Positions 15,743-42,249 of a DNA stretch of 64,000 nucleotides are shown piece by piece. The notes beneath the pieces are model-generated. The model saw nothing but the letters and a program-made list of their open reading frames with translations. It was not told the DNA's origin and did not search any database. Every line of letters begins with the position of its first letter. The first letter of the stretch is position 1. Where the stretch lies: positions 38,250 to 102,249 of the forward strand of contig NZ_DF158901.1 of NCBI RefSeq assembly GCF_000307265.1, read 5' to 3'. Origin of the DNA: Oscillibacter ruminantium GH1. GTDB taxonomy: Bacteria > Bacillota > Clostridia > Oscillospirales > Oscillospiraceae. Both the position numbers and the translations under genes were made by a program.

Positions 15743-15980
15743 AAAAAATCGGTAGAGAAAACGCTCTCTACCGACAATCGCTCCCACGCAGATGTACAAA
15801 TGTGTGGAGCTTCCTGTGAGCAGATAGCGCCCCCGCAGTTTCCCGCGGACAGTCCCGGAGATATTCTCCCCGGACCCACCAAAGCGGCATACCTGCCGTT
15901 TCAGTTCGGCGGAATCGCTTCCGCTGCGTTCATCGCCTGTCAGCTCGCACAGCGCCGTCTCATCCGCACCTCTATCTTGT
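15743..15980 (-). promoter_or_regulatory. Lysine riboswitch (L box) with expression-platform terminator
   Basis: On the minus strand the leader opens with AAGATAGAGGTGCGG (15978 down to 15964), the signature 5' core of the lysine aptamer, followed by GGAAGCGATTCCGCCGAAC, a GGTGGGTCCGGGG segment and a closing CTGTC. It ends in a terminator hairpin TCGGTAGAG...CTCTACCGA (15774-15749) followed by TTTTTTG. The aptamer starts at the predicted transcription start. In known L boxes lysine binding favours the terminator and shuts down dap genes, which fits dapABH downstream. Confidence 0.9.
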
Positions 15981-15986
15981 GGGGAT

Positions 15987-38804: not shown

Positions 38805-38991
38805 AGATATTGATCCTCGATTTTCACTCTGTTGTATTTTGGCGGTAGTCGCCGTTCATTTCGCGTACTTCTACAAGTGACATTATAGTGAATATTTGGG
38901 TAAAAGCAAATGTTATTTTTGACCTTCTGGCATAAGACTGCTATACTGGAGGAAAATTTACGGATTTTGAACGGGATGAGCGGGGAATACA

Positions 38992-41622
38992 ATGAAAAAA
39001 TTGGCAATTGGGATATTGGCTCATGTGGATGCGGGAAAGACCACGCTGACCGAAGGACTGCTCTATACCGGTGGGGTGCTGCGCAAATTGGGACGGGTGG
39101 ATCACCGGGACGCGTTTTTGGATACGTTTGCGCTGGAGCGGGAGCGGGGCATCACTATTTTTTCAAAGCAGGCGGTGCTGCCGCTGGACGGTTTAGAGCT
39201 GACGCTGCTGGACACCCCCGGCCACGCGGACTTTTCCTCCGAGGCGGAGCGGACGCTCCGGGTACTGGACTGCGCGGTGTTGGTGGTCAGCGGTGCGGAC
39301 GGCGTTCAGGGCCACACGCTGACGCTTTGGCGGCTGCTGGCGCGGTATGGAGTGCCCACCTTCCTGTTCGTCAACAAGATGGACCAGCCGGGGACGGACC
39401 GCTCCGCGCTGCTGGCGGAGCTGAAAAGCCGCTTGGACGGCGGGTGCGTGGATTTCTCCGGGCCGGATGCGGAGCGGGGAGAGGAAATCGCCCTTTGCGG
39501 TGAGGCGGCCATGGAGGAGTATCTGGCCTGCGGCCAGCTGAAAGACGAGACGATTGCCGCGCTGGTGGGGGAGCGGAAGCTGTTTCCCTGCCTGTTCGGT
39601 GCGGCGCTGCGGCTGGGCGGGGTGGAGGAGCTGCTGGACGGATTGCGGCGCTTTGCACCATCGCCGGTCTATGGAAGCGCCTTTGGCGCGATGGTCTATA
39701 AGATTTCAAGAGATCCGCAGGGCGCGCGGCTGACCCATCTAAAGGTCACCGGCGGGACGCTGCGGGTGAAAGATCTGCTCTGCGGCAGTCGAGATGGGGA
39801 GGACTGGCAGGAGAAGGCGGATCAGATTCGCGTCTATTCCGGAGCGAAATTCCGGGCCGTTGACGCGGCGGAGGCGGGGACCGTTTGTGCCGTCACCGGA
39901 TTGACCCGCACCTTCTGCGGCGAGGGGCTGGGCGAGGAAGAAGCATCCGCGCCCCCTATGCTGGAACCGGCTCTGACCTGTCAGGTGCTTTTGCCGGACC
40001 GCTGCGACCCCCACACGGCGCTGATGCAGCTGCGTCAAATTGAGGAGGAGGACCCCCAGCTGCATGTCTCGTGGCAGGAGCGGACCGGAGCTATCAATCT
40101 CCAGCTGATGGGGACGATTCAGCTGGAGATTTTGCAGCGGCTTTTAAAGGAGCGGTTTGATCTGGACGTGGCCTTTGGACCCGGCGCGATTGTTTATCGG
40201 GAGACGATTGCCGCCCCGGTGATCGGTATTGGGCATTTCGAGCCTCTGCGCCACTATGCGGAGGTGCACCTGTTGCTGGAGCCGTTGGAACGGGGCGCAG
40301 GGCTACGGTTTGCCTCTGCCTGTTCGGAGGACGTGCTGGCTCTTGGCTGGCAGCGGCTGGTGCTGAGTCAGCTGGCGGGACGGAGCCATCCCGGCGTTCT
40401 CACCGGTTCGCCGGTCACGGATATGAAGATTACGCTGATCGCGGGCCGCGCCCATGAAAAGCACACCGAGGGCGGCGATTTCCGTCAGGCCGCATGGCGG
40501 GCTTTGCGACAGGGCTTGCTGTCGGCGCAAAGCGTGCTGCTGGAGCCTTGGTATGACTTTCGATTGACCCTGCCCACCGCCCAGACGGGCCGGGCCATGG
40601 CGGATTTGCAGCGCATGGGCGGGGATTTTGCGCCGCCGGAAACGGTGGGGGAGGAAGCTCTGTTCACCGGGAGCGCACCCGCCTCGGCCTTGAGGGACTA
40701 TGCCGCAGAGGTAACCGCCTATACCAGAGGACGGGGTCGGCTGACCTGCGCCCCCGGCGGCTATCGCCCCTGTCGGAATCAGGAGGCGGTTGTGGACGCG
40801 GCGGGATACGACCCGGAGCGGGATTTGGAAAACCCGGCGGATTCCGTCTTTTGCGCTCACGGTGCGGGGTACAATGTCAAATGGGATCAGGTTCCAGCCC
40901 ATGCCCATGTGAACAGTGGAGTGCACCTTGGCGCGCGGCCTTTGGACGAGCAATCGCCGCCCGCGGCGGCCCGTTCCGCATCCTACGTCGGAACGGTGGA
41001 GCAGGACAAGGAGTTGCAGGCAATTTTTGAGCGGACTTACGGGCCGGTGAAGCGCCGGGCTTTTCAAAAGCCGGTGCCTGCGTCGTCTGCACGGCCGGAG
41101 CCTGCGGCCGCTCCCCGGCCTGCCGGGCCGGAATATCTGCTGGTGGACGGTTACAACGTGATCTTTGCGTGGGACGAGTTGAAAACCGTGGCTGCGGAGC
41201 ACTTGGACGCTGCCCGCCGGGAGCTGTGTGACCTGATGAGCAATTATCAGGCTTTTCGCCGGTGCAAGGTAATCGTGGTGTTTGACGCATATAAGGTAAA
41301 GGGCGGAATTGAAAAAGTGGAAAAGTACCACAATATCCATGTGGTCTATACAAAAGAAGCGGAGACGGCGGACGCTTATATCGAGCGGACCACGTATCAG
41401 ATCGGGCGGGAGCACCGGGTGCGGGTGGTTTCGTCCGACGGCGCGGAGCAGATCATCATTCTGGGTCATGGCGCGCTGCGGGTTTCCGCCGCCGGGTTCC
41501 ATGAGGAAATGCTTCAGACCACCGGGGAGATTAAGAAGATTTTAGAAAAAAACAATTTGACCGGAAAAGTCCGTCCCTTGCGGGAAGCGCTGACCAAGGC
41601 GCTGGAAAAAGGAAGCGAATGA
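38992..41622 (+). CDS. Tet(M)/EF-G-like ribosomal GTPase fused to a YacP/Rae1-type NYN endoribonuclease domain
   Basis: An 876-residue protein, against about 640 for Tet(M)/Tet(W). Residues 1-650 are a translation GTPase: P-loop GILAHVDAGKTTL at residue 6, switch region GITIFSKQ, DTPGHADFSSE near residue 73, NKMD near residue 127, then EF-G domains II-V (LMGTIQLEILQRLL, PTAQTGRAMADLQRMGG). A linker rich in Pro, Ala and Arg (about 660-710) leads to residues 713-876, a NYN/PIN-like domain: LLVDGYNVIFAW, VIVVFDAYK, ETADAYIERTTY and VVSSDGAEQ carry the acidic residues. In Bacillus the YacP/Rae1 family cuts mRNA in the ribosomal A site. The fusion suggests a factor that enters stalled ribosomes and cleaves message; tetracycline protection is possible but unproven. 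ATG follows GCGGGGAAT. Confidence 0.92.
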   Translation: MKKLAIGILAHVDAGKTTLTEGLLYTGGVLRKLGRVDHRDAFLDTFALERERGITIFSKQAVLPLDGLELTLLDTPGHADFSSEAERTLRVLDCAVLVVSGADGVQGHTLTLWRLLARYGVPTFLFVNKMDQPGTDRSALLAELKSRLDGGCVDFSGPDAERGEEIALCGEAAMEEYLACGQLKDETIAALVGERKLFPCLFGAALRLGGVEELLDGLRRFAPSPVYGSAFGAMVYKISRDPQGARLTHLKVTGGTLRVKDLLCGSRDGEDWQEKADQIRVYSGAKFRAVDAAEAGTVCAVTGLTRTFCGEGLGEEEASAPPMLEPALTCQVLLPDRCDPHTALMQLRQIEEEDPQLHVSWQERTGAINLQLMGTIQLEILQRLLKERFDLDVAFGPGAIVYRETIAAPVIGIGHFEPLRHYAEVHLLLEPLERGAGLRFASACSEDVLALGWQRLVLSQLAGRSHPGVLTGSPVTDMKITLIAGRAHEKHTEGGDFRQAAWRALRQGLLSAQSVLLEPWYDFRLTLPTAQTGRAMADLQRMGGDFAPPETVGEEALFTGSAPASALRDYAAEVTAYTRGRGRLTCAPGGYRPCRNQEAVVDAAGYDPERDLENPADSVFCAHGAGYNVKWDQVPAHAHVNSGVHLGARPLDEQSPPAAARSASYVGTVEQDKELQAIFERTYGPVKRRAFQKPVPASSARPEPAAAPRPAGPEYLLVDGYNVIFAWDELKTVAAEHLDAARRELCDLMSNYQAFRRCKVIVVFDAYKVKGGIEKVEKYHNIHVVYTKEAETADAYIERTTYQIGREHRVRVVSSDGAEQIIILGHGALRVSAAGFHEEMLQTTGEIKKILEKNNLTGKVRPLREALTKALEKGSE

Positions 41623-41811
41623 GCAAGCTGTGTAGTAGGAATTTGCGAAAAACTGCCCAATTATTTGTCAAAATTTTGTCGATATACTAAATTTTCATGA
41701 AATAGAAGAAAATTCATAAAAATATAGCCGATTTTTCCAATCGGTATGTTATACTACCTCTTAGTTTTTGATTCTTTAATTTACACGTTTGGGGCGGAGG
41801 TCGGGAAGCGG
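41623..41811 (+). promoter_or_regulatory. AT-rich gap with an extended -10 promoter
   Basis: TGTTATACT at 41747-41755 is an extended -10 with no clear -35, and a CCGATT/AATCGG dyad sits just upstream (about 41728-41744). It likely drives the small hypothetical at 41812. Nothing else is seen. Confidence 0.5.
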
Positions 41812-42249
41812 ATGCAGAAAAGGTACTGGGAAAATGAATACCGCGACATCCTGATCTGCGTGGACAGGTACGAAAATCGGATTCCGGAGGGGCATCTGGT
41901 ACATCCCAGCCTTGGACGGGCGGTCCAATTTTACGGTGTGATCCAGCTTCTGCGGATAGTGGAATCGCTGTTGGATGAGCTTCGTTTTCCCGAGACGTTT
42001 TCCTGCCTTCGCAAATTTCAGCCGCTGATGGAAGAACCGCTTCAGCCGGCTGCCGTTACGCCCGACAAGGGGCTGTCGGCCACGTTCCGCCTGCGGATTC
42101 TGTTTCGGCAGAACAGCACTTGGCAGGGGACGGTGCAGTGGCTGGAGGGAAAACGGGATACGTCGTTCCGCAGTACGTTGGAGCTTCTTTTCTTGTTGGA
42201 CAACGCCCTGTGCCCCGATGACGGGGGTAAGCACTCCGACGAGAACTGA
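41812..42249 (+). CDS. Conserved-looking hypothetical protein (145 residues)
   Basis: Starts MQKRYWENEYRDILICVDRY and includes YGVIQLLRIVESLLDELRFP, then a second half SATFRLRILFRQNSTWQGTV and FRSTLELLFLLDNAL. I cannot name the family with confidence; the pattern of a short beta-rich half ending RQN(A/S)TWQG and a terminal helix recalls small uncharacterised clostridial proteins. No membrane segment or signal peptide. ATG 41812 follows GGAGG and GGGAAG; an in-frame start at 41746 would precede the promoter. The candidate structured RNA follows 19 bases after its stop. Confidence 0.7.
   Translation: MQKRYWENEYRDILICVDRYENRIPEGHLVHPSLGRAVQFYGVIQLLRIVESLLDELRFPETFSCLRKFQPLMEEPLQPAAVTPDKGLSATFRLRILFRQNSTWQGTVQWLEGKRDTSFRSTLELLFLLDNALCPDDGGKHSDEN

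Follow-up and report, generated by a model that had tools for sequence, protein, structure and literature searches.

A Rae1/YacP nuclease fused to an EF-G-type GTPase stands in for the free yacP gene in many Clostridia

According to the available text of two reports (PMC12320835, PMC10100781), Rae1 of Bacillus subtilis, the product of yacP, acts in a translation-dependent manner, attacking and destabilising mRNA in the ribosomal A site. A fusion of such a nuclease with a GTPase is also on record, since Atkinson 2015 (BMC Genomics, PMC4342817), in its available passages, notes a Tet-NYN fusion in "ten species of clostridiales" and files it as Tet, and the fusion architecture is thus already known. 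This was the only source in which our literature search found the fusion; Leroy 2017, Condon 2018, Deves 2023 and Gilet 2025 lay outside its coverage and may mention it. Here we consider a protein of this kind from Oscillibacter ruminantium GH1, encoded in a stretch of 64,000 nucleotides of contig NZ_DF158901.1 that we call the window. It has the same architecture as the fusion of PMC4342817, an EF-G-type GTPase joined to a YacP-like NYN RNase in Clostridia, but whereas that fusion was treated there, as far as the available text goes, as Tet and as a possible resistance factor, the GTPase considered here forms a clade of its own, carries another domain-IV tip and belongs to a protein that replaces yacP.

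The gene is a single open frame of 876 codons without internal stop, from ATG to stop, and was found exactly where the original prediction, made from the letters alone, had placed it; all the motifs quoted in that prediction for both modules are present in the translation. The parts of the protein are as follows (window positions).

38992..41622, + strand: fused translational GTPase - Rae1/YacP NYN protein (open reading frame and Pfam)
39001..39660, + strand: G domain, residues 4-223, with AHVDAGKTT, RGITI, DTPGH and NKMD (Pfam PF00009 GTP_EFTU, E 1.5e-46)
39682..39915, + strand: EF-G domain II, residues 231-308 (Pfam PF22042 EF-G_D2)
39967..40179, + strand: EF-G domain III, residues 326-396 (Pfam PF14492 EFG_III)
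40189..40530, + strand: EF-G domain IV, residues 400-513 (Pfam PF03764 EFG_IV)
40534..40782, + strand: EF-G domain V, residues 515-597 (Pfam PF00679 EFG_C)
40780..40911, + strand: conserved C-terminal extension of the GTPase, residues about 597-640 (alignment)
40912..41130, + strand: linker, residues 641-713 (alignment and AlphaFold2 model)
40999..41040, + strand: conserved linker helix, residues 670-683, consensus ELxxIFERTYG (alignment)
41137..41598, + strand: NYN_YacP / Rae1 nuclease domain, residues 716-869 (Pfam PF05991, E 2.5e-50)

An AlphaFold2 model of the fusion, for which 75 natural fusions served as input, reached a mean predicted local distance difference test (pLDDT) of 84.9 and a predicted template modelling score (pTM) of 0.65; its residues 1-610 matched the EF-G fold, and the C-terminal part, folded alone, matched the Rae1 fold. 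That a frameshift or a misassembly had joined two genes can be given a negligible probability, because 105 of the 291 genomes of our class sample share the identical architecture and one intact fused open reading frame (ORF) is held by each of the 74 loci, out of the best 80 genome-contig loci, that were examined and used; the supported clades formed by the fused proteins argue in the same direction.

The fused and the stand-alone forms of the nuclease exclude each other. In this class sample, which was drawn evenly over the Clostridia and in which many genomes are metagenome-assembled genomes (MAGs), NYN_YacP was found above the cut-off in 188 genomes: fused in 105, spread over 25 families, stand-alone in 83, and in both forms in none, as against about 30 expected by chance, a difference for which kinship among the sampled genomes makes any formal probability meaningless. 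Both states occur within families f46, f47, f51 and f52, in different genomes. A phylum sample that shares some genomes with the class sample gave a single match in 154 of its 155 matching genomes, and the two matches of the remaining one (G601) are both of stand-alone size. Within the genus of the window, NYN_YacP is present in 57 of 61 genomes, always within an open frame of at least 350 amino acids. For the host genome itself (3.1 Mb, listed as 100% complete) no second NYN_YacP gene was found, so that the fusion is its only PF05991 gene. This mutual exclusion appears to be new.

Three genomes that had been candidates for carrying both forms (G232, G295 and G336) were rejected, their second matches being below the cut-off (E about 5e-4), and G318, which might have been taken for an unfused GTPase with a stand-alone yacP, has both halves at contig ends and was counted as fused because four congeners are fused. 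G331, where the gene is cut short, was counted as unfused since a stop follows the extension, and the single match of G342 was below the cut-off and not counted. A sharper model of the GTPase found 122 genomes, nearly the same set, with G274 lost and G227 gained, both cut by contig ends; G227 was left unclassified.

The site at which the free gene would be expected tells the same story. In the stand-alone genomes, yacP directly precedes sigH in 19 of 20 cases by BLAST (all 15 of a first set, and four in a second set that also holds the exception, G337), and by gene order the same holds for G217 and G262. Among 37 fused genomes sigH was recognised in 31, and none of these has an intact yacP ahead of sigH. 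Upstream of sigH, the first gene to be recognised is rlmB in 21 of them, across a gap of 8-586 bp, while 10 have no rlmB in the roughly 1.5 kb examined; the remaining 6 of the 37 lack a clear sigH. The window genome likewise has no canonical yacP, that is a separate gene of about 170-215 codons before sigH, its copy being the fused one. Some of the rlmB-sigH gaps are of the size of yacP (577 bp in G123, 585 in G316, 533 in G184), and none of these contains an intact gene. For 7 of 20 testable gaps, the top YacP match scores higher than any obtained from 100 base shuffles, which preserve base composition and not dinucleotides. The clearest remnant, in the gap of G123 (L222, 873-1449), scores 43.5 bits over 84 aligned residues interrupted by stop codons, and its longest open run is 49 amino acids as against 170-176 in two intact controls; that of G229 is 21 residues long and shares 81% identity with yacP from a genome of the same family, and the gaps of G209, G184, G293, G295 and G254 hold suggestive remnants. 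Genus g64 shows the whole contrast at close range, with G157 having the order mrnC-rlmB-yacP-sigH (the first gene being what we take to be mrnC) and no GTPase of the family, G123 having the fusion and the ruin of yacP, and G232, G295 and G336 combining the fusion with gaps that measure 124-206 bp; fused and stand-alone genomes also contrast within families f46 and f47. The free yacP has been lost or has decayed at its old site in the fused genomes, a finding that appears new, and the fusion has replaced the ancestral gene.

To judge from the trees, nuclease and GTPase seem to have been joined just once, since the fused NYN domains form one clade (support 100 in the Shimodaira-Hasegawa-type approximate likelihood ratio test, SH-aLRT), separate from the stand-alone NYN proteins with the exception of G337, and the fused GTPases likewise form one clade. 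The joining also looks to have been undone at least once: the NYN protein of G337 (L099, 6790-7308, - strand) stands alone inside the fused clade, adjoins neither rlmB nor sigH, and occurs together with a GTPase of the family (L091, 6487-8433, + strand) that is of the unfused kind.

By profile, sequence and fold, the fused NYN domain is Rae1. Its match to Pfam PF05991 reaches 171 bits against a cut-off of 24.6, which bears out the claim of a full YacP/Rae1 domain, and its sequence matches the B. subtilis Rae1 structures 5mq8 and 5mq9 with an E value of about 4e-40. When the C-terminal part was folded alone, the best match was Rae1 again (5mq9_A, Z 19.6, 1.9 A over 134 residues), and the best match other than Rae1 had a Z of 8.6. 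D719, N722, D765, D794, E798 and D816, which are of the catalytic type also present in Rae1, are invariant in all 75 aligned fusions, so that the loss of catalytic acids that would have told against a nuclease is not seen. Of 33 columns conserved at 90% or more in 23 stand-alone YacP proteins, 26 have the same residue in at least 90% of the 99 fused rows compared (the NYN of G337 was excluded from this comparison). B. subtilis Rae1 differs in being the product of a separate gene without GTPase.

The GTPase module is of the EF-G type, with domains G, II, III, IV and V all present and the G motifs intact; K16, T55, D74, K129 and D131 are found in 75 of 75 aligned fusions and H78 in 74. With the catalytic-type residues kept on both sides of the linker, both enzyme modules look functional. 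In a fold search, residues 1-610 of the model matched ribosome-bound EF-G with a Z of up to 38.1 and a root-mean-square deviation of 11.5 A, which is this large because the domains are set at other angles. Elongation factor G thus resembles the fusion GTPase in domain order and fold, but is a separate paralogue with another tip: the host has its own (L188), which groups with EF-G in our quick tree.

The original prediction had spoken of a Tet(M)/EF-G-like GTPase, and while the complete set of EF-G-type domains stands, membership of the Tet(M) family proper does not, on account of the profile cut-off, the clade and the tip of domain IV. The ribosomal-protection proteins (RPPs) of the Tet(M)/Tet(O) type share with the fusion GTPase the five-domain EF-G fold and the best NCBIfam profile, NF012153 tet_protect, but the score is 392 bits, below the cut-off of 775; further fused and unfused members of the family score 388-441 bits, and none of the 6 genomes scored reached the cut-off. 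In a careful tree of 33 rows, which included 16 fused rows picked by hand, 10 unfused proteins and four RPPs, support was 100/99 for the GTPase family, 100/99 for the RPPs and 99/97 for the fused proteins. A quick tree of 58 rows, with 33 fused rows picked by hand, 15 unfused proteins representing 14 of the 17 genomes and Tet(S) added to make five RPPs, gave the same separation (SH-aLRT 100). The fusion GTPase and its unfused relatives therefore form a clade of their own apart from Tet(M), Tet(O), Tet(S), Tet(W) and TetB(P); the trees lack the tet(36)-like locus L209, as the motif for row selection did not match it. The quick tree places the unfused GTPase of G301 next to the fused clade, the careful tree among its unfused relatives. 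The same genome has another Tet-like GTPase (L183, 1261-3459), which sits on a long branch near the RPPs and scores 488 bits with tet_protect, below the cut-off. In G217 we observed two unfused copies of the family GTPase (L086, 6183-8147, and L087, 6256-8196, both + strand) together with a stand-alone yacP. One relative is annotated at NCBI as 'translation factor GTPase family protein'.

The tip of domain IV, at two loops, is where the fusion GTPase, about 29% identical to Tet(M), departs from both Tet and EF-G; in those two proteins these are the regions that extend into the decoding centre.

40231..40272, + strand: domain IV tip loop I, residues 414-427, GHFEPLRHYAEVHL, unlike Tet or EF-G (alignment)
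40444..40485, + strand: domain IV tip loop III, residues 485-498, GRAHEKHTEGGDFR (alignment)

In the alignment, Tet(M) has IHIEVPPNPFWASIGL in place of loop I; at loop III the fusions have the consensus GRAHxKHTxGGDFR, as against GLYYSPVSTPADFR in Tet(M) and GSFHEVDSSEMAFK in EF-G. The motifs PPNPFW and YSPVSTPADFR of Tet(M/O/W) are not in the fusion, which has PLRHYAEVHL and KHTEGGDFR in their place. H415, H421 and Y422 of loop I and K490, H491, T492 and G494-R498 (GGDFR) of loop III are found in 75 of 75 fusions, R420 in 72, and KHTxGGDFR also in the displayed rows of the unfused relatives. As judged from its sequence, the GTPase is no Tet ribosomal-protection protein but a distinct subfamily of translational GTPases, which appears new; neither its separation from Tet nor a replacement or decay of yacP was found in our literature search, the coverage of which did not extend to key Rae1 papers.

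Between the two enzymes lies what had been described as a Pro/Ala-rich linker. A linker exists, but the stretch also holds two conserved elements. The extension at about 597-640 (about 44 residues) is common to fusions and unfused relatives; C621 in it and C594 shortly before it are each invariant in 75 of 75 fusions, its pLDDT is about 92 in the full model and 51-75 in the separate model of the C-terminal part, and the aligned rows of the fold searches hardly cover it. The linker proper is mostly disordered, with a length of 61-145 residues (median 77) in the 75 fusions, and contains the helix at 670-683, which is strongly conserved in the fusions and is modelled with low confidence in the full-length protein and with higher confidence in the C-terminal model. 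The 15 C-termini of unfused relatives that we inspected stop short of this helix.

Because no sampled genome has both forms and the free yacP decays in place, the fusion very probably performs the work of Rae1, and the yacP remnants have raised our confidence a little further; gene replacement thus lends support to the Rae1-type role foreseen in the original prediction. How the GTPase would contribute is a more delicate question. The EF-G fold, the conserved tip and the persistent joining suggest that it delivers the NYN cut or gates it, which we regard as an even matter. The GTPase part would dock on paused ribosomes as EF-G does, at the factor-binding site, and the unusual tip of domain IV would enter the decoding centre, the nuclease being delivered to the ribosome or gated there; once the tip has left, the tethered NYN domain would enter and cut the A-site codon, and the cut ribosome would pass to non-stop rescue. 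This order, GTPase first and nuclease second, is proposed because domain IV and the NYN domain are unlikely to fit the A site together, and the long tether would permit it. That a translational GTPase of an own clade in Clostridia, with Rae1 tethered to it, docks on paused ribosomes, cuts the A-site message and replaces yacP has, in our estimate, about as much to be said for it as against it. The fullest version, a one-chain rescue factor in which the GTP cycle licenses the tethered Rae1 and which, as the usual form of Rae1 across much of the Clostridia, drove the decay of free yacP in several lineages, is put forward only tentatively.

Several observations weigh against such a joint mechanism. 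No remnant above the shuffles was found in 13 of the 20 gaps; 73 of the 83 genomes with a stand-alone yacP have no detected GTPase of the family, and 7 of the 17 with an unfused GTPase have no yacP. Unfused GTPase and yacP are not enriched together (10 of 17 versus 73 of 168, Fisher p 0.31), which leaves a Rosetta-stone reading, in which the two would co-occur, without statistical support. The function is dispensable in the class, since 95 of the 291 genomes have neither NYN_YacP form nor a family GTPase; many of the surveyed genomes are MAGs; the free-standing NYN of G337 implies that the joining is not always needed; and domain IV and the NYN domain are expected to compete for the A site. 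R118 and E123 (B. subtilis numbering), invariant in the 23 stand-alone proteins, are relaxed in the fusions (R 73%, E 56%); speculatively, they may be docking residues made superfluous by the GTPase.

The same genomes with one partner and without the other, the escaped NYN of G337 without its GTPase, and the length and disorder of the linker would suit two independent activities in one chain, the NYN domain acting as Rae1 and the GTPase doing a job of its own, with the joining setting only equal amounts or proximity to the ribosome and with no GTP gating. We nevertheless consider this unlikely, given one apparent origin, the conserved helix borne by the linker, and the fact that 105 sampled genomes from 25 families retain the fusion as a single gene and all lack a second yacP. 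The ancestral neighbours rlmB and mrnC, whose products act on rRNA, point elsewhere, to a nuclease that matures rRNA or tRNA or degrades defective ribosomes and is guided to the ribosome by its GTPase, and an NYN proposal of Anantharaman and Aravind 2006, as cited in the available text of PMC4342817, agrees with this. Such a role seems improbable to us, as B. subtilis Rae1, in the accessible parts of PMC12320835 and PMC10100781, destabilises mRNA in dependence on translation and the fused NYN domain keeps 26 of the 33 conserved columns.

Resistance to antibiotics, with a Tet-type RPP whose RNase domain acts on rRNA or on drug-stalled complexes, was proposed by Atkinson 2015 in the available passages of PMC4342817 and would agree with tet_protect being the best NCBIfam profile, though below its cut-off, and with one weak terminator-like match upstream of the fusion (38840-38854). 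We hold it to be just as improbable as a maturation nuclease, since the score is 392 bits where 775 would be needed, the GTPase forms its own clade apart from the RPPs, and the tip lacks the Tet motifs, having in their place different residues, almost every one of which is invariant in the 75 fusions. No Rfam element was found upstream of the fusion. The gene is widespread in whole families, and carriage as mobile or resistance cargo was rejected: of 1294 matched plasmid records only 2 contain a locus that spans 80% of the query, no close relative was found in viral contigs with a single-protein query, and of the 12 phage-collection records that match the NYN part none is annotated and 8 are under 15 kb. 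One of these two plasmid records is 'plasmid 12' of Monoglobus pectinilyticus (L182, 517 kb, non-mobilizable), where the fusion has cotJ and secA nearby, and this is probably a piece of chromosome labelled as a plasmid.

The fusion bears on the question of how Rae1 selects its ribosomes and gains access to their A site: in roughly one third of the class sample (105 of 291), gut lineages included, Rae1 is joined to a ribosome GTPase and the free copy is lost. The eukaryotic Hbs1/Pelota system with Cue2 or NONU-1 likewise couples a GTPase system for ribosome rescue to the cutting of mRNA on ribosomes, but with separate proteins and unrelated nucleases, and Hbs1 is of the EF1A branch; if the proposed mechanism is true, one polypeptide would accomplish the task for which eukaryotes need Hbs1/Pelota together with a distinct nuclease. 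The fusion would also be a native construct in which ribosome docking can be separated from cutting by point mutations. Our results suggest that a subfamily of translational GTPases now grouped with tetracycline resistance, or generically named, serves mRNA surveillance instead.

The nearby mutS2 is no conserved neighbour of the fusion. Neighbours were compared by BLASTP over 92 contexts including the window (at most eight genes on each side, with flanks of 6-8 kb or less that often ended with the contig), and recO and mutS2 of the window recur beside the fusion in none of the 91 others, while each of three other window neighbours was matched once, in one case strongly (E 7e-39). The link to mutS2 drawn in the original prediction is thus not upheld. 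B. subtilis MutS2 is reported, in the available text of PMC10897456, to split ribosomes without cutting mRNA. Directly downstream, an ORF of 167 amino acids (41746-42249, + strand) has no Pfam match and no homologue near the 91 other fusions. Three promoter matches were found in the region against 1.8 expected, and one of them lies shortly before the fusion.

38919..38947, + strand: sigma-70-like promoter match TTGACC-17-TATACT, with TG before the second hexamer (consensus match only)

Elsewhere in the window, a lysine riboswitch (RF00168, 88 bits) is found at 15817-15982 on the - strand.

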